A stretch of 32,229 nt of DNA from Armatimonadota bacterium. GTDB taxonomy: Bacteria > Sysuimicrobiota > Sysuimicrobiia > Sysuimicrobiales > Sysuimicrobiaceae. A program made the position numbers and the translations under genes. This document shows positions 1 through 9,008 of this stretch, piece after piece. Position 1 is the stretch's first letter. Each line of letters opens with the position of its first letter. The notes under the pieces were generated by a model that worked only from the letters and a program-made list of their open reading frames with translations, made no database searches and was not told the DNA's origin. Location: assembly GCA_031460175.1 (NCBI GenBank), contig JAVKGW010000013.1, forward strand, positions 1 through 32,229, read 5' to 3'.

Positions 1-288
1 AGAATAGCGATTTCCGATATTGCCCTTCTCAAGGAGCTTCCTAAAAGAATTCAGGAAAGCATTGAAGCTTATGTAGGTTGTGTTGGAGGGGCAATACTTA
101 TTGACGAGTATAAGAGGATTGTCGAAGCATCGGGGTTGAAGAATGTAAGAATTACAGTCAAGGGCTCCTCTGCTTGTATTGACACTAATACAAAAGACCC
201 GATAGGCAGAGCTATTTTAGATCGCTTAGGAGACAATGAATCTCTTGAAGGGTATGTAGTCAGTGTTTATGTAGAAGGGTATAAATAA
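1..288 (+). CDS. arsM: Arsenite S-adenosylmethyltransferase, C-terminal 95 residues (5' truncated by window edge)
   Basis: Frame 1 is open from base 1 and stops with TAA at 286-288. The product matches the C-terminal region of ArsM, which methylates As(III) with SAM in the cytoplasm. It starts with SDIALLKELPKRIQESIEAY and contains the AYVGCVGGA segment, whose Cys corresponds to a conserved arsenite-binding Cys of the family. A second Cys follows in GSSACIDT. The SAM-binding N-terminal half lies outside the window. The gene is visibly AT-rich (codons such as ATA, AGA, TTA) while everything after about 370 is GC-rich, so it is of foreign origin. It is followed 18 nt later by an attC site, so it is read here as an integron cassette gene. 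The family call is good; the cassette status is inferred from the neighbouring site. Confidence 0.8.
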   Translation, partial: RIAISDIALLKELPKRIQESIEAYVGCVGGAILIDEYKRIVEASGLKNVRITVKGSSACIDTNTKDPIGRAILDRLGDNESLEGYVVSVYVEGYK

Positions 289-306
289 GGTGTGAGAATC
301 TATTTT

Positions 307-366
307 GCCTAACAAGTCGTTGCAGCGGACGGCGTTCCGCCGCCGTTGATGCCGATGCCGTTAGGC
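307..366 (+). other. attC-like integron recombination site 1
   Basis: A 60-nt site is bounded by GCCTAAC (307-313, fits RYYYAAC) and its exact inverse GTTAGGC (360-366, fits GTTRRRY). The interior has an imperfect hairpin, CGG-A-CGGCG / CGCCG-CCG with loop TTC and one unpaired A. The outer arms pair less well than in sites 2 and 3. It lies just behind the arsM stop and ahead of the next cassette gene, as expected of attC. Confidence 0.68.
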
Positions 367-406
367 CGACATGCCAGTCGATTAGGGCCAGGGAAAGGAG
401 GACCTT

Positions 407-859
407 ATGTCATCGTTAGAAGAGAACAAGGCCTTGGTACGGCGGTTCTACGAGGAGATCGACAAGGGGAACATCGACGCGATGGACGAGTTAGTCGCCG
501 AGGACTACATCAACCACGATCCGCCTCCGTTCCCGGGCTTGGCCACTGGCCGCGCCGGTTTGAAGCAAGCATTCGAAATGTTCTGGAAGGCTACGCCGGG
601 CCGCCACATTATCGAAGACCAGGTCGCTGAAGGCGACAAGGTCGTAACCCGGCTGAGAGCGGTGGGCAAGCATGAGGGTGAGTTGGCAGGGATCCCACCA
701 TCGGGTAATGACCTCGACGTAAAGGCGGTAGCCATTCACCGGATCGAGAATGGAAAGCTCGCGGAGCACTGGTCGGTAGTCGATTCCGCGGCCTTGCTGT
801 CCCAACTGGGTGTCATCCAGCTCCCATTCGCCCCGAAGCATGGTAATGGTGCGACCTAA
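407..859 (+). CDS. SnoaL-like polyketide cyclase / ester cyclase family protein (cassette gene)
   Basis: The product is 150 aa, the usual length of a single NTF2/SnoaL-fold domain. The ATG at 407 has AGGAGG about 7 nt upstream. Family features are the N-terminal EENKALVRRFYEEI helix, the DYINHDPPPFPG segment after VAEDY, a central GDKVVTRLRAVGKHEGELAGIPP strand pair, and the closing IENGKLAEHWSVVD with a His-Trp. These proteins include aldol-type cyclases and many of unknown substrate, so no reaction is assigned. The stop codon TAA (857-859) is embedded in the first core box of attC 2. This is typical of integron cassettes, which carry one gene ending at the recombination site. There is no promoter of its own; expression would come from an upstream cassette promoter. 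Confidence 0.82.
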   Translation: MSSLEENKALVRRFYEEIDKGNIDAMDELVAEDYINHDPPPFPGLATGRAGLKQAFEMFWKATPGRHIIEDQVAEGDKVVTRLRAVGKHEGELAGIPPSGNDLDVKAVAIHRIENGKLAEHWSVVDSAALLSQLGVIQLPFAPKHGNGAT

Positions 860-922
860 CTCGCGGTTGGAGCCGACCGCTCGCCTGTGGCTCGCAGCGG
901 CTCAACCGCAGTATCGTTAGGC
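854..922 (+). other. attC integron recombination site 2
   Basis: A 69-nt site runs from ACCTAAC (854-860) to GTTAGGC (916-922). The inner arms pair as GCGGTTGGAGCCGACCGCT on the left against the complement of AGCGGCTCAACCGC on the right. The unpaired left-arm bases (a G, then AC) correspond to the extrahelical bases that set strand choice in attC folding. It overlaps the stop codon of the preceding gene. This is the clearest of the three sites. Confidence 0.85.
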
Positions 923-959
923 AGACCATGGATTCTCAATCGAAACGCGATCGGGGACA

Positions 960-1493
960 ATGGGTTCATCGTTGGTCCGAGGTGCTGGCACTCTCTCCTT
1001 AATCGCGGGTATCGGGTGGATGGCTGGGCGTTTCCTCATGTTCGGCCAGACTCCTGGAACCTCTCGATATATTCAGGCCAATCGCGTTTGGACTCTTGGC
1101 CTGGCCATGCTTCCGCTGGCGTTAATCAACCTCGCTGGACCGGCCCGTCAGCGTCCCGGCCTCGTCGGTGGGTTGGGTCTCTTGCTCAGTGCCTTGGGAT
1201 CCTCAGCGATGGCCGCTGGCAATTTCGTAGAGTTTTATGTCGGTGAAGACTTTGGTTGGATCTTCTTTGGGGCCGGTCTGTCCCTGTTCACCATTGGCTG
1301 CGCTCTCCTGGGGTGGTTTCTCCGGGCACGGGGGGCGAGGCCAGAACTGTCCACCTACTACATACTCCAGCTTCTCGGGGTATTCGCCCTTCTAGGGTCG
1401 ACTGCTGGTGCAATCGGTCTGGCGTCTTCTATTCTGTTTGCCTCTTCAATGTTTTGGCTTGGGTTTCGGCCGGCGGTTGTGGAGACGATTTGA
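960..1493 (+). CDS. Unrecognised integral membrane protein (cassette gene)
   Basis: The 177-aa product has about five hydrophobic segments: around residues 8-25, 48-62, 70-88, 100-118 and 135-168. A charged loop (GWFLRARGARPELS) lies between the last two. I do not recognise a family and see no catalytic motif. The ATG at 960 is preceded only by a weak GGGA. An ATG at 928 is in another frame and was rejected. The stop TGA (1491-1493) lies 21 nt before the first core box of attC 3, so it is the single gene of its cassette. Cassette-borne membrane proteins are often lineage-restricted; a role in transport or envelope stress would be a guess. Confidence 0.72.
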   Translation: MGSSLVRGAGTLSLIAGIGWMAGRFLMFGQTPGTSRYIQANRVWTLGLAMLPLALINLAGPARQRPGLVGGLGLLLSALGSSAMAAGNFVEFYVGEDFGWIFFGAGLSLFTIGCALLGWFLRARGARPELSTYYILQLLGVFALLGSTAGAIGLASSILFASSMFWLGFRPAVVETI

Positions 1494-1514
1494 ACCAAGC
1501 TGGTTTGTGCTGCT

Positions 1515-1575
1515 GCCTAACACGCCTCTGGAACCGACCAGCTTCGCTGGCGGCTCAGCGGCCAATCCGTTGTAC
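1515..1575 (+). other. attC integron recombination site 3
   Basis: A 61-nt site runs from GCCTAAC (1515-1521) to GTTGTAC (1569-1575); the last box departs from GTTRRRY at one base. The inner arms pair as GCCTCTGGAACCGACCAGC against the complement of GCTGGCGGCTCAGCGGC, with single unpaired left-arm bases and a short TTC loop. The fold and length are typical of attC, and it sits between two same-strand genes. Confidence 0.8.
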
Positions 1576-1604
1576 GGATCTGTGATTCCGGGAACCGACG
1601 CTGA

Positions 1605-2034
1605 ATGAGTCTTCGATACTTCATTGGTTTGGGGGGCAGCGCCGTCGCTACGGTCGAGCGAGCCCGCGCGCTCGAGGCGGCCGGATGGGACGGTATCGCT
1701 ATCGGAGACCATCGCACGAGTACTCGCCATATGTGGGCGACCCTCGGGGCTGTGGCGGCTGCTACGTCACGGGTGACGCTGCTGTCCGCATTCGCCAACA
1801 ACCTCTTCCGCCACCCCGGGGACTTCGCTCGGGGTGCCGTCACTGTACACGCCATCGCGACAGGGCGGTTCGAGGGCGGCCTGGGCGCGGGGTGGTTGGC
1901 GGACGATCACAGCGTGATCGGCGAGGTCCTGCCCTCGCCTCGGGAACGTGTCGACCGGCTTCGCGAGGCGGTTGAGATCGTGGCGGGGCTGTTCCGCCAG
2001 AGGTCGTGTCACCACCGTGGCGTCCACTACCGCG
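1605..2034 (+). pseudogene. LLM-class flavin/F420-dependent oxidoreductase, 3'-truncated cassette gene
   Basis: From ATG 1605 the frame encodes an N-terminal LLM (luciferase-like) TIM-barrel half. Features are ARALEAAGWDGIAIGDH, TLGAVAAATSRVTLLSAF, the NLFRHPGDFARGAVTVHAI block, and GRFEGGLGAGWLADDH followed by SPRERVDRLREAVEIV. Full-length relatives have 280-340 residues; here similarity ends near residue 143 (HYRG) and the frame runs into unrelated codons, stopping only at 2147. The catalytic C-terminal half is missing and no attC follows. The most likely explanation is that mobile-element DNA was joined at about 2035-2045. F420 rather than FMN use is a family possibility, not visible here. 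Confidence 0.72.
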
Positions 2035-2097
2035 GTTCAGCGCGAGCTGCCGAAGATTTTGCCCGGCCTACCCCATGCGCCACCCTTGCGGCGGGCC

Positions 2098-2301
2098 CTA
2101 GATCGGGACATCGGCCTCCTCCGCGTCTTCCGCCTGGCCCGGGCTGACCCGTAGCCCGGGGGCCACAGGTGGGTGGCAGACCCCGCAGACCCAGCGCCCC
2201 GGAGGCTGGAACCACCACGCCCTCTCCCCGCAGCACGGACACGGCCCCTGGGGGGCGTGGCCGTCAGGCCGTAGCGTCGCGATACGTTGCGGTACGGGCA
2301 C
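2098..2301 (-). CDS. Small zinc-ribbon protein or gene remnant
   Basis: A 67-aa frame begins at GTG (2301) and ends at a true TAG after EEADVPI. It holds one clear zinc ribbon, CPCCGERAWW then RWVCGVCHPP, that is two CxxC pairs 17 residues apart. Such ribbons commonly form the C-terminus of phage and plasmid replication proteins; the primase at 3589-5964 also ends in one. The first 12 codons overlap, in another frame, the HTH-like sequence described at 2265-2486. The ribbon may therefore be the frameshifted tail of that gene rather than an independent protein. The function is probably nucleic-acid binding, by inference only. Confidence 0.4.
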   Translation of the reverse strand: MPVPQRIATLRPDGHAPQGPCPCCGERAWWFQPPGRWVCGVCHPPVAPGLRVSPGQAEDAEEADVPI

Positions 2302-2486
2302 TGGCCGCCTGCGTCAAGTACGCTGTAGGCGCTCTGGAGCTCCTCCTCCCGCCTCTCCCGGGCGGCCGCCTCCAGGGCCTGAACCACGTGCGCCCGGTGC
2401 CGGCGCGTGGCCGTCTCGGAAAGCCCGTAGTGCGCCGCTATGCGCCGGCAAGGCAGGCCATCCACCAGGGCCTGGTCGGCCTCCCG
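2265..2486 (-). pseudogene. Degenerate helix-turn-helix gene of mobile-element type
   Basis: The minus-strand reading shows EADQALVDGLPCRRIAAHYG followed by LSETATRRHRAHV, a good helix-turn-helix. It continues as a charged helix (LEAAARERREEELQSAYSVL) and then a second HTH-like half, CPYRNVSRRYGL, at 2265-2300. After that the frame loses sense, while a zinc ribbon continues in a different frame. No convincing start exists: upstream at 2528-2556 another HTH half, PYRNVAERYG, appears in yet another frame. This is read as a broken small DNA-binding protein such as those found beside phage primases. Confidence 0.4.
2269..2297. repeat. 29-bp repeat, copy A
   Basis: The plus-strand text begins CCGTAGCGTCGCGATACGTT. 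It is 25/29 identical to copy C (3531-3559) and 22/29 to copy B (2528-2556), all in the same orientation. On the minus strand each encodes YR(N/D)V(S/A)xx(Y)G, half of an HTH. Coherent sequence changes at or beside each copy. Confidence 0.5.
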
Positions 2487-2527
2487 GGGTCCGGGGCCTG
2501 CTCCTGCCCGTGGCCATAACGGGAACC

Positions 2528-2556
2528 CCATAGCGTTCCGCAACGTTTCGGTATGG
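2528..2556. repeat. 29-bp repeat, copy B
   Basis: The plus-strand text begins CCATAGCGTTCCGCAACGTT. It matches copy A at 22 of 29 positions. It abuts the MacB-type permease stub that begins at 2553, so the join of unrelated sequence falls inside or next to the repeat. The minus strand reads PYRNVAERYG. Confidence 0.4.
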
Positions 2557-2690
2557 TACTGCGGGCGCTCTCCGGGAACCCCCTGCGGTCTCTGCTCACC
2601 ACGCTGGGCGTGATTATCGGTGTCGCGGCGGTGGTGACCACGGTGAGCATCGGTGCCGGGGCCCGGCGCAGCGTGGAAGAACAGGCGCTA
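2553..2690 (+). pseudogene. MacB/FtsX-type ABC transporter permease, N-terminal stub
   Basis: About 46 codons from ATG 2553 encode the characteristic N-terminus of MacB-like permeases: LRALSGNPLRSLLTTLGVII then GVAAVVTTVSIGAGARRSVE. That is the cytoplasmic 'RSLLTTLGIIIG' entry followed by the first membrane helix. Similarity stops after VEEQ (about 2690) and the frame then runs through unrelated sequence to 2846. A full permease has about 400 residues. No partner ATPase is nearby. It is a fragment carried by recombination and presumably non-functional. Confidence 0.6.
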
Positions 2691-2901
2691 GCTACTTTGC
2701 CGTCAAAAGGGCAAATCGTGCCGCGTTTCGTCGGCTCGGCCCCGTTGCTGCGCCGAACCCTCTCACAACACGGCAGGGTGGGGTTACGCCCAAAACGTAA
2801 CGTCCCCCCCGTTGCCGGCATGCCCGAGATACCCGACCCGGGGTAGACCCCCCCAAACGTACCGTCCTCTTGGGCGACGCCTGCGGCCCCCGCGCGGACG
2901 C
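2691..2901. other. No recognisable gene; short imperfect direct repeat
   Basis: I see no coherent protein on either strand. The only structure noticed is a direct repeat of about 16 bp, CCCAAAACGTAACGTCC near 2790 and CCCCCAAACGTACCGTCC near 2845. The interval links the MacB stub to the integrase-like remnant. Confidence 0.35.
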
Positions 2902-3283
2902 CCCACCCCCCTCGAACCCTCGCTTCACCACTCCGAGCCGCATCAGCTCCAGGAGACCCTCTGCCGTCTCCTCGGAGAAGGACGGGAACCACGCCATTAG
3001 ATCCTCCAGCGTGCCTCCGTGGTTCGTGCGGGGAAGAGGCCGGCTCAGCACCCAGTTCCCGCCGTCCTCCACAGTGCCCAGGTCCCTCGCGGCCAACCGG
3101 AGCTCCTCCTCCTCGAAGCCCGCGCTCGAGCCACGCGGTCACGAAATCCCCGACCGTGGTGCCGGCGTCGGACGGGACAGCGCCGCCCCTGATTTCTACC
3201 ACCAGCTTGGCAAGCTCCCGCTCCGCATCGCGCCGGGTCCCGCGCACCCTGCGGGCCTGTTTCGCCCCCTTCTTCCTGGTCAC
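2902..3283 (-). pseudogene. Integrase-like N-terminal remnant with a frame change (decayed)
   Basis: From GTG 3283, 56 codons read like the start of a tyrosine integrase: GTRRDAERELAKLVVEIRGG followed by TTVGDFVTAWLERG, which resembles the region leading into the SAM-like core-binding domain. At about 3118 the sense passes to another frame: FEEEELRLAARDLGTVEDGG, later HGGTLEDLMAWFPSFSEETA and EGLLELMRLGVVKRGF, ending near 2902. A one-base frameshift would join the two parts. The second part does not match an integrase core, and no catalytic R...HxxR...Y box is present anywhere nearby. It is either a frameshifted unknown protein or a chimera of an integrase N-terminus with something else. Confidence 0.42.
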
Positions 3284-3371
3284 GGGTCCCCCGCGACCGG
3301 CATCGCGTACGCGCGGCTGCGGGCGCGGTTCCCGGCGGCCCTCGCTCGGGTGGGGCCACGATCCCTACCCC

Positions 3372-3521
3372 TCAGTCGCGGCACTGCCCGGCAGCCGCAG
3401 CAGGGCACCGCCACTCCCACCGGTCGCCCTGCACACGGAGGGCCCGGGTGGCTTGGTTGCGGAGTTCCAGGCCGGCGCTGAGCAGGAAGGGCAGGATGAA
3501 GAGCGTCCGTGGGCCACCCAT
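3372..3521 (-). CDS. Short hydrophobic-start ORF of unknown function
   Basis: ATG at 3521 opens 49 codons whose first 17 residues are hydrophobic (TLFILPFLLSAGLEL). They are followed by a basic, Trp-containing tail (RALRVQGDRWEWRC). There is no clear ribosome binding site. It lies between the primase stop (3589) and the integrase-like remnant, directly after repeat copy C. It may be a small exported or membrane peptide, or chance; it is listed only because it is an uninterrupted frame in a mosaic interval. Confidence 0.2.
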   Translation of the reverse strand: MGGPRTLFILPFLLSAGLELRNQATRALRVQGDRWEWRCPAAAAGQCRD

Positions 3522-3530
3522 GCTCAGAGG

Positions 3531-3559
3531 CCGTAGTGTCGCGCTACGTCGCGGTACGA
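3531..3559. repeat. 29-bp repeat, copy C
   Basis: The plus-strand text begins CCGTAGTGTCGCGCTACGTC; it is 25/29 identical to copy A. The minus strand reads SYRDVARHYGL followed at once by a stop (TGA). It lies 30 nt downstream of the primase stop codon. Confidence 0.5.
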
Positions 3560-3588
3560 GCCCCCCGGGGCCCTGGTCGGCCTCAGCC

Positions 3589-5964
3589 TCAATCTCGCAG
3601 GGCCTCCGCCGCGTACACCTCGTCCGGATCCCGGATCTCGGGTACCGGGGTGGAGCCGGCGCTGGAGAGTACGTCCGGAGGGATCCTGCCCGCCGGGATT
3701 CCGCGCCAGCCACACCGGCTGCACACCGGCCGTCCCCCCAGGACCGCCACCGGGCTGCCGCAGCCCTCGCAGAGCCCCCGAGACCTCCTGCGGGCCCGGG
3801 CGGCCTCGGGGTCCTCCTGGGGGAGCGGCTCAGGGCCCACGGGGCCGGGATCCTCCACCCAGGGTGGCGGCCCTGCCTCCGGGTCGGGGGGGATGTCCGG
3901 GACCTCCTCTTCGTGCAAGGGGTCATTTTCTGGGCCCCAAAGCTCCACAACCTCCACAAGGCCGTCATTTCGCGGGTTTGGGCCGTTTTCGAATCCTCCA
4001 CAACCCCCCTCCTGTGGAGGATTGGGTTGTGGGCCGGAATGCCCGTCATTGCTGGGTTGTGGAGGATGTGGAGGATTGAGGGTGTTAAACCAGCAATATC
4101 GGAGCCAAACATCCTCCAGGGCCGCCCTGGAGTAGCCCTTGACTCCGGCCCTCTCACCCAAGCGCCGCTTCTCCGGGTGTACCCCGTACCGGCGGAGGAT
4201 CCTGGCCAGGGTGTGCGCGGTCAGCCCCCTCCCCTTCCAGTCCCTCCAGGGGGCCTCGGGGTCCGACCTGAGGTCGTCCACGATGGTCTCCGTCCGGAGC
4301 CAGTCGGCCTGGCGCTCCTCGAAGACCAGCTTCAGGTCCGCGAGGAGCCGGACCCCCACCGACTCCCGGTTCAGGTCCTGGCCGTCCCCCTCCAGGGCCT
4401 GGGCGGAGGCCTCCAGGTCCCCGAGCCGGGAGGGGTCGGCCGCCTCCACCACCGCCCAGAGCACGCTCCAGTTGTCGGCTGCCCGGTCGTGCATCCAGCC
4501 CGGCGGCTCCGTCCGCAGGTAAGCCTCCCGCACCCGGGCCTCGTTCGCCGTGGCCCACGCCTCGAGCCGCCGGCGGAGGTCCTCGGTCTCGGCCCGGACG
4601 CGGAGCCGCCGGAACCGCTCCACCCTCTCATGAGGCGCGCGCCGGTGCATGTAGATGCGAATACTACGATCGGCGAGAACATCCGTGAGCGAGCCGATCA
4701 GCGCCACGGCTTTGAACCCGAAGCAGTCGAACGGCTCCAAGCGGAACTCGCCCTTCGTCTTGGTGACCCGGTAGACCGGCCTCCCACGGACATGGCCCGC
4801 CGCGAGCAGGTCGTGGAGCGCGGCGGACCGCTCCGTACGATCCCCGAGTTGCTGCGCTTCGTCGATCAGCAAGGTAGGCCGCTTCGCCTGGACCACTCGA
4901 AACAACGCGGCCTCCGAGATGTTTGCGGTGGCGACCGGCTCGCGGACCACGAAGCTCAGGAGGTCAAGCAACGTGGTCTTCCCGCACCTCCGCTCAGCGC
5001 TGGTGATGGCCAAGTACGGCGCGACCTCGAACGCGTCCACCACCCACGTGGCCATCGTCCACGCCGCAAGCGCCAGCGGCGCGCCCTGTGGGAGCACGAG
5101 GTAGCGCGTGAAGTACCGCTCCAACTCGCGCAGCAGCTCCGCGCCGTCCGGCGCTTCCGGAGGACGCCACCGGACCGCCTGCTGCAGCAGCCGCTCCACG
5201 TCCGCGCGGGTGGCCCCCTGCGCCACGAAGTCCGCGGCGTCTCCGCCGGGCGGTGCGTCGGGCCAGTTCACCACGTGGATGTCGTGGTGCCCGAGCGCGT
5301 ACAACCTCCGGGCGATGCGCTCCATGTGCGAACACCCCGGCTCGTCGTGGTCGGGCCAGAGGTACACGGTCTGGCCGAGGAGGGGGCGCAGGGCTTCATC
5401 GCCGGGTGTCGCACTCGCACCGGTCACGGTGCCGACTGCCGGAAGTCCCAGGCGGAGGAGGGCGTCTGTGGCCTTCTCGCCCTCGCACACCACGACGCGA
5501 TCCGCGTCCCCGAGCAGGTGGATGCCGTACAACGGGAGGCTCTCAACACGGGCCCCGTCCAGACCGGGGCGGCCGTCGGGCGACCACCACGACAGCTTTT
5601 TCCCGGCCGGGCCGTCCTCGCGGACGTGGACCGCCACGAGGCGGCCGTCGGGCGCGCGGACCTCGTACCGGGTAACGGTCTTCTTCGCCCGCTCCCGCTT
5701 CGGAGCCGCGCCACCGTCCCGTTCAGGCCACAAGCCCCGCTCACGCAGGGACTCAATCACATCCTCTTGCCGGCAGCCTGCGCCGCACCAGACCAGCACC
5801 TTGCCGTCGCGCACGCTGACGGATAGCGACGGATGTTGATCATCATGGCAGGGGCAATGGCTTAGACCTGTCGGTCCGGGCTTTGTGCACGGACATCCCG
5901 GGCGGCTGCAGCTGAGGGCTTTTCGAATTTGCGAAGCAAACAATTCGTGTGGTAAGCTGCTCAT
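3589..5964 (-). CDS. Primase-helicase-like protein: CHC2 zinc finger, Toprim, DUF3631 ATPase, C-terminal zinc ribbon
   Basis: The 791-aa product probably initiates and unwinds DNA during replication of the mobile element. The start at 5964 (MSSLPHEL) is set by AGGAGGTG about 9 nt upstream; a Met 13 codons earlier lacks this. Domains in order: a CHC2-type zinc module at about 19-64 (CPCHDDQHPSLSV, then VWCGAGC); a Toprim-like segment at 155-230 with CEGEKATDAL (Glu161) and LWPDHDEPG (Asp205/Asp207). A P-loop ATPase of DUF3631 type follows, with Walker A ERRCGKTT (324-331), Walker B TLLIDEA (364-370) and ADRSIRI as a candidate arginine finger near 433. Next comes a Pro/Gly-rich linker from about residue 625 on, and a last zinc ribbon (CEGCGSP...VCSRCGW). 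The architecture is usual for phage, plasmid and satellite replication genes. It is followed on the same strand by decayed fragments and preceded by a putative excisionase gene. Confidence 0.85.
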   Translation of the reverse strand: MSSLPHELFASQIRKALSCSRPGCPCTKPGPTGLSHCPCHDDQHPSLSVSVRDGKVLVWCGAGCRQEDVIESLRERGLWPERDGGAAPKRERAKKTVTRYEVRAPDGRLVAVHVREDGPAGKKLSWWSPDGRPGLDGARVESLPLYGIHLLGDADRVVVCEGEKATDALLRLGLPAVGTVTGASATPGDEALRPLLGQTVYLWPDHDEPGCSHMERIARRLYALGHHDIHVVNWPDAPPGGDAADFVAQGATRADVERLLQQAVRWRPPEAPDGAELLRELERYFTRYLVLPQGAPLALAAWTMATWVVDAFEVAPYLAITSAERRCGKTTLLDLLSFVVREPVATANISEAALFRVVQAKRPTLLIDEAQQLGDRTERSAALHDLLAAGHVRGRPVYRVTKTKGEFRLEPFDCFGFKAVALIGSLTDVLADRSIRIYMHRRAPHERVERFRRLRVRAETEDLRRRLEAWATANEARVREAYLRTEPPGWMHDRAADNWSVLWAVVEAADPSRLGDLEASAQALEGDGQDLNRESVGVRLLADLKLVFEERQADWLRTETIVDDLRSDPEAPWRDWKGRGLTAHTLARILRRYGVHPEKRRLGERAGVKGYSRAALEDVWLRYCWFNTLNPPHPPQPSNDGHSGPQPNPPQEGGCGGFENGPNPRNDGLVEVVELWGPENDPLHEEEVPDIPPDPEAGPPPWVEDPGPVGPEPLPQEDPEAARARRRSRGLCEGCGSPVAVLGGRPVCSRCGWRGIPAGRIPPDVLSSAGSTPVPEIRDPDEVYAAEALRD
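3941..4078. repeat. Cluster of CCTCCACAACC-type direct and inverted repeats inside the primase gene
   Basis: CTCCACAA occurs at about 3943 and 3952, and CCTCCACAACC at 3995. The inverse appears as TGTGGAGG (4013-4020), GGGTTGTGG (4024-4032), GGTTGTGGAGG (4055-4065) and TGTGGAGG (4067-4074). CCGTCATT occurs twice (3962 and 4043). The stretch encodes the NPPHPPQPS...GPQPNPPQ linker of the primase. Iteron clusters within or beside replication genes are common origins, but a low-complexity linker explains it as well. Confidence 0.5.
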
Positions 5965-6022
5965 GGGAACTGCACCTCCTTTTTTCTCCGGCCGCGCCCG
6001 CACGCGCGGCCCCGCTTTTCAC

Positions 6023-6247
6023 CTAACGGCGCGTCTCCGTCTCCGGGGCCGCCTCGTCCGTGAGCCGGCCGAGGAGCCAGCCCTCAAGCCCCGCCCGGAC
6101 GAGGTACGTCCGCCTCCCGAGCCTCACGACGATGCGGTCCGGCACGCGCCCTCGCTGCAGGTGCGCGTAAAGCATTCTCGCGCTCACCCCGAGCAACCGG
6201 GCCGCCTCTTTGACGGTGATGAGTAACCTCCGATCGTCCTGCATCAT
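6023..6247 (-). CDS. Excisionase / helix-turn-helix family DNA-binding protein
   Basis: A 74-aa protein with a MerR/excisionase-type winged helix: LLITVKEAARLLGVSARMLY, then AHLQRGRVPDRIVVRLGRRT and YLVRAGLEGWLLG. This is the standard order of helix-turn-helix plus wing in Xis and Phd-like DNA-binding subunits. It would bind near the attachment site and favour excision, or regulate the element. GGAGGTG lies 7 nt before ATG 6247; a second ATG follows immediately at 6244. It sits 58 nt ahead of the primase start on the same strand, so the two are probably co-transcribed. A palindrome (6263-6295) lies just upstream. Confidence 0.75.
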   Translation of the reverse strand: MMQDDRRLLITVKEAARLLGVSARMLYAHLQRGRVPDRIVVRLGRRTYLVRAGLEGWLLGRLTDEAAPETETRR

Positions 6248-7369: not shown

Positions 7370-7677
7370 TCGTTTGTCCTTAGTCTACTACGCCCTATCT
7401 TCGCGACGCCTCCAGAGCATCTCCACCACCTCTCCGGTCCCCTAGTATCCTGGGACAGGTACCCACTGGAAGCAGGTCCACATTGCGTAGGACCCCGAAA
7501 CACCTCCACCCGCTCCGCGCGGCCCCGGGACCGCGACCTCGGGAGTTGCCGCCAAATTGCCGCCAGACACCAGGGAAAAGGTGGTAAAATGAGGCTACGC
7601 TAGGAGAAGAGGAAAGGCTAGAACCCGCACAGGACGTGAATTCCGGGGAAGAGGGGAAGTGGGGGGAACACCCAGGG
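7370..7677. other. Element terminus without a recognisable gene; tandem TTGCCGCCA
   Basis: About 300 nt between the hairpin and the tRNA fragment contain no convincing coding sequence on either strand. They hold two identical 9-bp direct repeats, TTGCCGCCA at 7546-7554 and 7557-7565, spaced 11 bp start to start (one helical turn). They also hold a purine-rich run (7605-7670). The repeats lie about 115-130 bp from the attachment scar, where arm-type or Xis sites of an integrase would be expected. Confidence 0.35.
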
Positions 7678-7725
7678 CGCCCTCTCAAGGCGGAGACGGG
7701 GATTCGAATTCCCCTGGGGCCACCA
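7678..7725 (+). other. attR-type scar: 3' half of a tRNA-Glu (CUC) gene
   Basis: The 48 nt fold as the 3' half of a tRNA. The anticodon loop is CTCTCAA (anticodon CTC, 7684-7686) with a four-pair stem. The T arm is GGGGA-TTCGAAT-TCCCC, and the acceptor strand TGGGGCC is followed by A and CCA (7723-7725). The required 5' half (GGCCCCA start, D arm) is absent upstream, and pair 27-43 is already mismatched (G-G), so identity ends at about 7678. Such fragments are left by integrases that insert in the 3' part of tRNA genes. Its orientation puts the element to the left and the original chromosome to the right. Confidence 0.75.
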
Positions 7726-7763
7726 ACTCCATGTCCCCGGGCCAAGAGCCGGGGAGGGCTCCC

Positions 7764-9008
7764 GTGGGCAAGCCGGACGCCGTGGTGGTGGGAGGGGGTG
7801 CGGTCGGCCTGTGCTGCGCGTGTGCCCTGGCGCGCGAGGGCATGCGGGTGCTTCTCCTGGAGCGGAAACGCCCCGGGGCCGGTGCCTCCTGGGGGAACGC
7901 GGGACTGGTTGCGCCCTCCCGCAGTGTTCCCCTGGCGGAGCCCGGGATCGTACGACGCGGCCTGCGCTGGATGCTGGATCCCACGAGCCCCTTGTACGTC
8001 CCCTTGCGGGCAGATGTGGGCCTGATCCAGTGGCTCTGGAGGTTCCGGAAATTCAGCACCGCGGCCCACCTGCGCCGCAGTCTGCCCCTTTTGGTCGGCC
8101 TCCAGCGGTGGAGCCTGCGCCTGTACCGGGAGCTGGAAGGGCGCGGCCTGGACTTCGGGTTCCGAACGTCGGGAACGCTTGCCGTCTTTCAGAGTTCCCG
8201 GGAGCTCGCGTCCTTCCTCGGGGAGGTGGATCTGCTCCGGAGCCACGGGATCCCCGCGGAGGTCCTGGGCCCGGACGCGGCCCTGCAGAGGGAGCCTCTC
8301 CTGCGACCGCAACTCGCGGGGGCGGTCTACTTTCCGGAGGACGCCTATCTGGATCCGGCCCGCCTTGTGGAATCCCTGGCCGCCTACGCGGGTGAGCTCG
8401 GCGTGGAGATCCGGAACGGGGCTGCAGGGCAGCGGCTGTGGCGCCGGGGAGGAGAGGTCTCCGTGGAGGTGGGGGACTCCTTCCTGCATCCGGCGACGGT
8501 GGTGGTGGCCGCGGGTGCGTGGAGCGCGCCCCTCCTCCGGACCGCGGGGGTCCGGATCCCGGTCTTGCCCGCCAAGGGCTACGCGATCACGCTCCCGCAC
8601 GCGGCCCCGCCCGGCCGTCCCCTGATGCTGAGCGAGGCACGGGTGGCGGTGACCCCGCTCCGGGGACCCGGTGGGGAGGCACGGGTTCGGCTCGCGGGGA
8701 CCCTGGAACTAGGAGTTGCGGAAGAGGGGATCAACCACCGACGGGTGCTTGCCATCCGGCGGGCTGCGTCCAGATACCTGGATCTGGATCCTTCCGGGGG
8801 AGAGGTGTGGGCCGGGCTCCGGCCCTGCACCCCGGATGGCCTTCCCGTGGTGGGGAGGCCGCGGGGGTTCAGGAACCTGGTGGTGGCCACCGGCCATGGA
8901 ACCCTGGGCATCTCCCTGGCTCCCGTGACCGGCGAGCTGGTGGCCTCCCTTGTCGCGGGGCGTCCTTTGCAGGAGCTCGATCCCCTAAGCCCGGACCGGT
9001 TCTGCTAG
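7764..9008 (+). CDS. DadA-type FAD-dependent amino-acid/amine oxidoreductase
   Basis: The 414-aa protein belongs to the DAO superfamily, most like D-amino-acid dehydrogenase/glycine oxidase. It oxidises an amine carbon and passes electrons to quinone or oxygen. The N-terminal Rossmann motif is VVVGGGAVGLCCACALAREG with the acidic LLLER end of strand 2. The DadA-like block RRGLRWMLDPTSPLYVPLRA follows, and the C-terminal FAD contact region contains GLRPCTPDGLPVVGRPRGFR and GHGTLGISLAPVTGELVA. GTG 7764 was chosen because GGGGAGGG lies 5 nt before it. An ATG at 7731 lacks a site and sits 6 nt after the tRNA fragment. It is the first chromosomal gene right of the island scar. The substrate is unknown. 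Confidence 0.82.
   Translation: MGKPDAVVVGGGAVGLCCACALAREGMRVLLLERKRPGAGASWGNAGLVAPSRSVPLAEPGIVRRGLRWMLDPTSPLYVPLRADVGLIQWLWRFRKFSTAAHLRRSLPLLVGLQRWSLRLYRELEGRGLDFGFRTSGTLAVFQSSRELASFLGEVDLLRSHGIPAEVLGPDAALQREPLLRPQLAGAVYFPEDAYLDPARLVESLAAYAGELGVEIRNGAAGQRLWRRGGEVSVEVGDSFLHPATVVVAAGAWSAPLLRTAGVRIPVLPAKGYAITLPHAAPPGRPLMLSEARVAVTPLRGPGGEARVRLAGTLELGVAEEGINHRRVLAIRRAASRYLDLDPSGGEVWAGLRPCTPDGLPVVGRPRGFRNLVVATGHGTLGISLAPVTGELVASLVAGRPLQELDPLSPDRFC

Follow-up and report, generated by a model that had tools for sequence, protein, structure and literature searches.

The stretch of DNA analysed here (the window, 32,229 nucleotides) is the entire contig C13 of a metagenome-assembled genome (MAG) from an Armatimonadota bacterium. 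Its left end carries an array of integron gene cassettes, which we describe together with an integrase gene on contig C9 of the same genome and with the tRNA-Glu island that spans both contig ends. The host genome comprises 2.49 Mb on 18 contigs and is 98.9% complete; SSU rRNA was not found in this MAG. With a GC content of 0.69, the host is, as a first-pass annotation of the window's sequence had proposed, a GC-rich and apparently non-proteobacterial carrier of an integron cassette array. Reading from the end of C9 into window positions 1–1575, the order is intI, attI, arsM, attC site 1, a SnoaL-like gene, attC site 2, a membrane protein gene, and attC site 3, all on a single strand.

The window begins mid-cassette. 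Positions 1–288 (plus strand, as are all features of the array) hold the last 95 codons of an ArsM-type arsenite methyltransferase gene, the 5′ 162 codons of which lie at the end of C9. This cassette is closed by attC site 1 (307–366). Cassette 2 (361–916, 556 bp) is bounded by G/TT recombination points at 360/361 and 916/917, read from the core boxes, and encodes a SnoaL-like protein of 150 amino acids (407–859; PF07366, 2.6e-36); attC site 2 follows at 854–922. Cassette 3 (917–1569, 653 bp), likewise delimited by its core boxes, encodes a hydrophobic protein of 177 amino acids (960–1493) that is probably a membrane protein and that had no match in Pfam and NCBIfam searches. The array ends with attC site 3 at 1515–1575. 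The GC content of the arsM cassette (0.44–0.45) deviates most from that of the host, and cassettes 2 and 3 are intermediate (0.58–0.60).

The three sites had been called attC-like on their appearance. The core boxes of site 1, R″ GCCTAAC and R′ GTTAGGC, are perfect complements; those of site 2 are ACCTAAC and GTTAGGC, and those of site 3 are GCCTAAC and GTTGTAC, the latter a degenerate R′ box. The stop codon that had been noticed inside a core box is the TAA of the SnoaL-like gene (857–859), which falls within R″ of site 2. We built a covariance model from 18 attC sites at other loci near IntI relatives in other genomes, none of them from the window, with the R″/R′ and L″/L′ helices modelled and the site ends aligned in register. 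Across the 32-kb window with filters off, sites 1, 2, and 3 were the three best matches, scoring 36.7 bits (E = 1e-7), 29.6 bits (E = 9e-6), and 13.2 bits (E = 0.2), respectively. Class 1 attC sites from two plasmids, held out of the training set, scored 43.1, 34.5, 31.3, and 25.9 bits. Sites 1 and 2 fall inside this range (25.9–43.1), and on that ground they can be taken securely as real attC sites. When the whole host genome was searched, site 1 was the sole match reported, with 150 of 639 candidates scored, hence a partial background test. With its stringency set by sites 1 and 2, a pattern scan returned 15–19 matches in 887 kb of real sequence versus 1 in a shuffle. Moreover, the better-folding DNA strand gave z scores of –3.9, –3.7, and –2.7 for sites 1, 2, and 3. 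The extrahelical bases that the first-pass annotation had seen in sites 2 and 3 are present, and site 1 has them too: a G and an A protrude from the L″ arm in all three, in an orientation that puts each site 3′ of its gene. Site 3 is marginal when taken alone; its position, in phase and co-oriented with sites 1 and 2, makes an attC identity credible. A search of positions 1–4000 against Rfam gave sub-threshold matches only, and the Glutamine-II match at 341–408 (19.2 bits, gathering threshold 33), which overlaps attC site 1, was dismissed.

At least two attC sites thus bound mostly single-gene, same-strand cassettes, as in an integron. Might they nevertheless be inverted repeats that happen by chance to separate ordinary genes of mixed composition? 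The E value of site 3 on its own would allow it, but sites 1 and 2 reach their E values under an independently built model, the sites recur at a regular one-gene spacing on one strand, and an IntI gene and attI lie upstream. We consider chance the least probable of the explanations weighed here, to the point of being negligible.

The first-pass annotation had described the array as being without its integrase, and here it was mistaken. The integron-integrase model TIGR02249 gave one match over cut-off in the host genome (430.7 bits, cut-off 265), at C9:80424–81362, which ends 700 bases before the right end of this 82,064-base contig. The intI gene is full-length (C9:80361–81446). In an alignment with IntI1 and IntI4, its product has the catalytic R, K, H, R, H, and Y residues as well as the IntI-specific insert, and its best match in the PDB is IntI4 (2a3v, residues 26–332, insert included). 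The gene is directed toward attI and has the same orientation as the cassettes. About 100 bp past the intI stop codon lies the insertion point TAAACAGGA-GTTAGGC, at which the first cassette starts. With a G/TT insertion point adjoining intI, as an integron has, this is a putative attI, and its core is similar to the attI of two relatives in the phylum (G001 and G017). Past attI, the low-GC arsenite methyltransferase gene begins and runs off the end of C9. The C9 part covers positions 3–168 of the curated arsenite methyltransferase model NF008823 and the window part covers positions 178–267, so that ~9 codons (27 bases) are missing between the two contigs, inside the first cassette. When the two ArsM parts were joined by 8 X and used in a tblastn search, plasmid arsM genes were matched in one piece.

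A second tie between the contigs does not involve arsM. On C9, gltX, tRNA-Gln, and tRNA-Glu(CTC) are followed, 31 bp on, by an intact phage-type tyrosine integrase gene on the opposite strand. The last 48 bp of tRNA-Glu and the next 4 bp (L009 14228–14279 on C9) are repeated at window positions 7678–7729 (plus strand) with 52 of 52 bases identical; this displaced copy of the tRNA 3′ end is the attR that marks the right end of an island. It is followed by a chromosomal gene for an FAD-dependent oxidoreductase of the DAO family (7773–9008, plus strand; PF01266, 2e-71). The same-genus genome G002 lacks intI; there, gltX (92% identical), tRNA-Gln, tRNA-Glu, and the DAO gene (69% identical) are uninterrupted, and the predicted empty junction aligns to G002 at 83% across 583 bp. 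Repeat and empty site alike show that both flanks are part of the host chromosome rather than the product of a binning error. Because the split arsM gene and, independently, the repeat with its empty site lead to the same arrangement, we conclude that the ends of C9 and C13 adjoin.

These results bear on whether the array is a cluster of attC sites lacking integron-integrases (CALIN), that is, an orphan array in the chromosome. Such a reading is understandable from the window, where intI is absent and the array starts at the contig edge. Yet the adjoining contig end carries an IntI match over cut-off, with the first half of the split cassette gene directly after it, and the tRNA repeat joins the same two contigs independently. 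A CALIN is therefore very improbable.

Taken together, an integrase gene beside an intact tRNA gene, a displaced repeat of the tRNA 3′ end, and an empty site in a relative identify C9:76343 to window position 7729 as an insertion of ~13.5 kb with the integron inside it. Window positions 1–1575 are thus very probably the distal part of a complete integron that is cargo of a tRNA-Glu(CTC) island. The array had earlier been placed next to chromosomal genes; this is incomplete in that the array itself belongs to the island. Just inside both island ends we noted paired direct repeats, TGCCGCCAA and TGCCGCCAG, 11 bp apart (7547–7566 at the right end, plus strand). Their motif, TGCCGCCAR, has only four copies in the 52 kb examined, two at each island end, and the pairs are candidate arm-binding sites of the island integrase.

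Alternatively, the integron could be a sedentary chromosomal one and the tRNA-flanked island unrelated and merely nearby. Most environmental integrons are chromosomal, and other integrons of the phylum, for example that of G001, have no adjoining tRNA gene in the stretch examined. However, attL and attR enclose intI together with every cassette, the empty site in G002 lacks the whole block, and no relative was found that carries the integron at this locus yet lacks the integrase and attR. These observations leave a sedentary integron highly improbable, somewhat more so than a CALIN. The integron may have entered an island that was already in place, which would not change its present carriage.

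The remainder of the island was searched against Pfam, PHROGs, and NCBIfam. The main open reading frames (ORFs) gave only the integrase, a helix-turn-helix protein, a primase/helicase, a PIN-domain protein, and fragments; conjugation or virion genes were not found among these main ORFs, and not every small ORF was searched. The primase/helicase-like protein (DUF3631) is encoded at 3589–6003 on the minus strand (PF12307, 6e-38; PHROG DNA primase, 1e-19). Next to it, at 6023–6247 on the same strand, is the gene for the small HTH_17 protein (PF12728, 5.5e-8), a candidate excisionase. The gene for the PIN-domain (toxin-like) protein, on the C9 part of the island (L009 17468–17843), apparently contains a frameshift, close to the 5′ end, that splits it. 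In viral contigs, the relatives were only distant, with 24% identity for the island primase and no more than 34% for the island integrase, and so there is no sign of a known virus. Within the host phylum, one further genome (G034) has a relative of the primase, and island-type integrases with 34–41% identity occur in eight other genomes.

To the right of the array, the sequence is fragmentary. A truncated gene for a luciferase-like (LLM) oxidoreductase flanks the array at 1605–2147 (plus strand; PF00296 positions 24–175 of 314) and is broken at ~2.0–2.1 kb. A fragment of the MacB N-terminus lies at 2553–2846. At 3128–3277 on the minus strand is what remains of the N-terminal region of a second tyrosine integrase of the island type (42% identity over 50 amino acids to the island integrase, E = 3e-6). 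In addition, a 32-bp stretch (2049–2080) has an 87.5% match close to a transposase remnant on C9 (L009 15911–15941). The luciferase-like, MacB-like, and second-integrase fragments (1.6–3.3 kb) are evidence of past rearrangement.

Several points weigh against the reading as a complete integron carried by an island. The weak site 3 has an R′ box that deviates from GTTRRRY. The C9–C13 junction has no sequence coverage (~27 bases missing). The gene fragments at 2.0–3.5 kb (luciferase, MacB, and the old integrase) indicate partial decay of the island's right arm. Lastly, the cassette promoter is unconvincing: TTGACA-17-TACCCT follows intI, and a promoter scan gave nothing over threshold. Since intI points toward the array, such a promoter would be expected between intI and attI or inside intI; in the relatives G001 and G010, a TATAAT occurs in the stretch between intI and attI.

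From the sequence we can establish the integron anatomy, the adjacency of the two contigs, the island ends, and the empty site in a relative; we infer that both recombinases, IntI and the island integrase, are active, where the cassette promoter lies, and that the whole island moves between cells. IntI is a tyrosine recombinase that joins the folded bottom strand of a cassette attC to attI, thereby capturing circular cassettes beside intI. In the mechanism that we propose, IntI would have stacked the arsenite methyltransferase, SnoaL-like, and membrane protein cassettes in the same direction. Because cassettes enter beside intI, the arsM cassette, closest to attI, would be the latest arrival. 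The phage-type integrase would have inserted the island at the 3′ end of tRNA-Glu, leaving an intact tRNA gene on the left and the 52-bp copy on the right, and it would insert or excise the whole unit at tRNA-Glu. Having no recognised conjugation genes, the island would need a helper for transfer.

In 43 genomes of the host phylum (one class, one order), five had an integrase over cut-off and a sixth had a partial match. Together with the GC content of 69%, this make-up would, as a guess, suit CSP1-3/Sysuimicrobiota (PMC11604079). Wherever the array or its first cassette was readable (G000, G001, G010, G014, and G017), it was co-oriented with intI. In a tree of 88 IntI sequences, the host IntI groups with those of G001, G010, G015, and G017 (SH-aLRT 88), on a long branch and at no more than 66% identity. 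The two intI fragments of G014 (L105 and L106) group with IntI of Rokubacteria and Acidobacteria, which suggests a separate acquisition. Orientation could be scored at 40 loci, and the difference between co-oriented and divergent loci maps to a single change on the tree; all scored co-oriented loci are from genomes outside Beta- and Gammaproteobacteria. IntI relatives with 51–60% identity occur in genomes of more than 15 phyla. We also noted that IntI of G001 (L093 8815–10155) has a long N-terminal extension before the recombinase (motif IKTIAGRRWHPEGKYWTVP), which the host IntI lacks, and that a tRNA-Arg gene of G015 (L107 8216–8291) lies ~400 bp before intI.

Both islands and prophages of Gammaproteobacteria are known to carry integrons; SGI1-type islands have one as cargo. 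The locus resembles class 1 integrons (IntI1; plasmids and islands such as SGI1) in its succession of intI, attI, and cassettes, in the score range of its attC sites, and in its carriage by a mobile element. By contrast, IntI1 is only 49–50% identical to the host IntI and is divergently oriented, class 1 cassettes confer antibiotic resistance where those found here are arsenic-related or metabolic, and SGI1 inserts in trmE rather than in a tRNA gene (PMC8409611). The presence of intI and cassettes on the same strand, with attI downstream of intI, is the co-oriented arrangement described for Treponema (PMC3607928). Chromosomal integrons of the T. denticola type share with the present one this orientation and the attC-delimited one-gene cassettes, but they belong to another lineage, whereas here a short array sits on a tRNA-Glu island. 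Prophage integrons of Vibrio and Shewanella (M16-3; PMC9892861) are likewise complete integrons within an integrated element that has a phage-type integrase; those are phages of Gammaproteobacteria, whereas here structural phage genes were not recognised among the main island ORFs, only an integrase, an HTH protein, and a primase/helicase. Integrons in archaeal MAGs (PMC9668308) are similar in coming from uncultured lineages and in having attI downstream of intI, and differ from this one in that the host here is bacterial and the island carrier is demonstrated by an empty site.

The array had been expected to widen the host range of integrons. This claim is weaker than it was put, since the literature already has integrons in many phyla besides Proteobacteria, the bacterial phyla on record numbering at least 14 (PMC8618304), and, in MAGs, in archaea (PMC9668308). 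The interest of the locus comes from its carrier and its host, not from integrons outside Proteobacteria being unknown. Environmental integrons are usually called sedentary, and mobilised ones are discussed mostly in clinical terms and for Proteobacteria (PMC8618304). The components are each known; to our knowledge, the combination of this host, a tRNA-Glu island, and a demonstrated empty site is not described in the open-access literature that we searched.

The host contig C9 and the contig of G001 both end inside the first cassette beside intI, and calls of an integron without an integrase in MAGs can thus be artefacts of contig breaks. More broadly, integrons can ride other mobile elements as cargo outside Proteobacteria, in this case with arsenic-related and metabolic cassettes on a site-specific tRNA island of an uncultured lineage. 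The island offers intI and arrays a concrete way to pass between lineages, with boundaries and an empty site precise enough for testing. We suggest, tentatively and at slightly less than an even chance, that this is a natural mobile integron that evolved in the environment, outside Proteobacteria. In this reading, the tRNA-Glu island, which has an integrase, a candidate excisionase, and a primase of its own, would still excise and would take a working co-oriented integron from cell to cell. If so, it would be a cassette-capture platform that is mobile at two levels, in a bacterial phylum that has been little studied.
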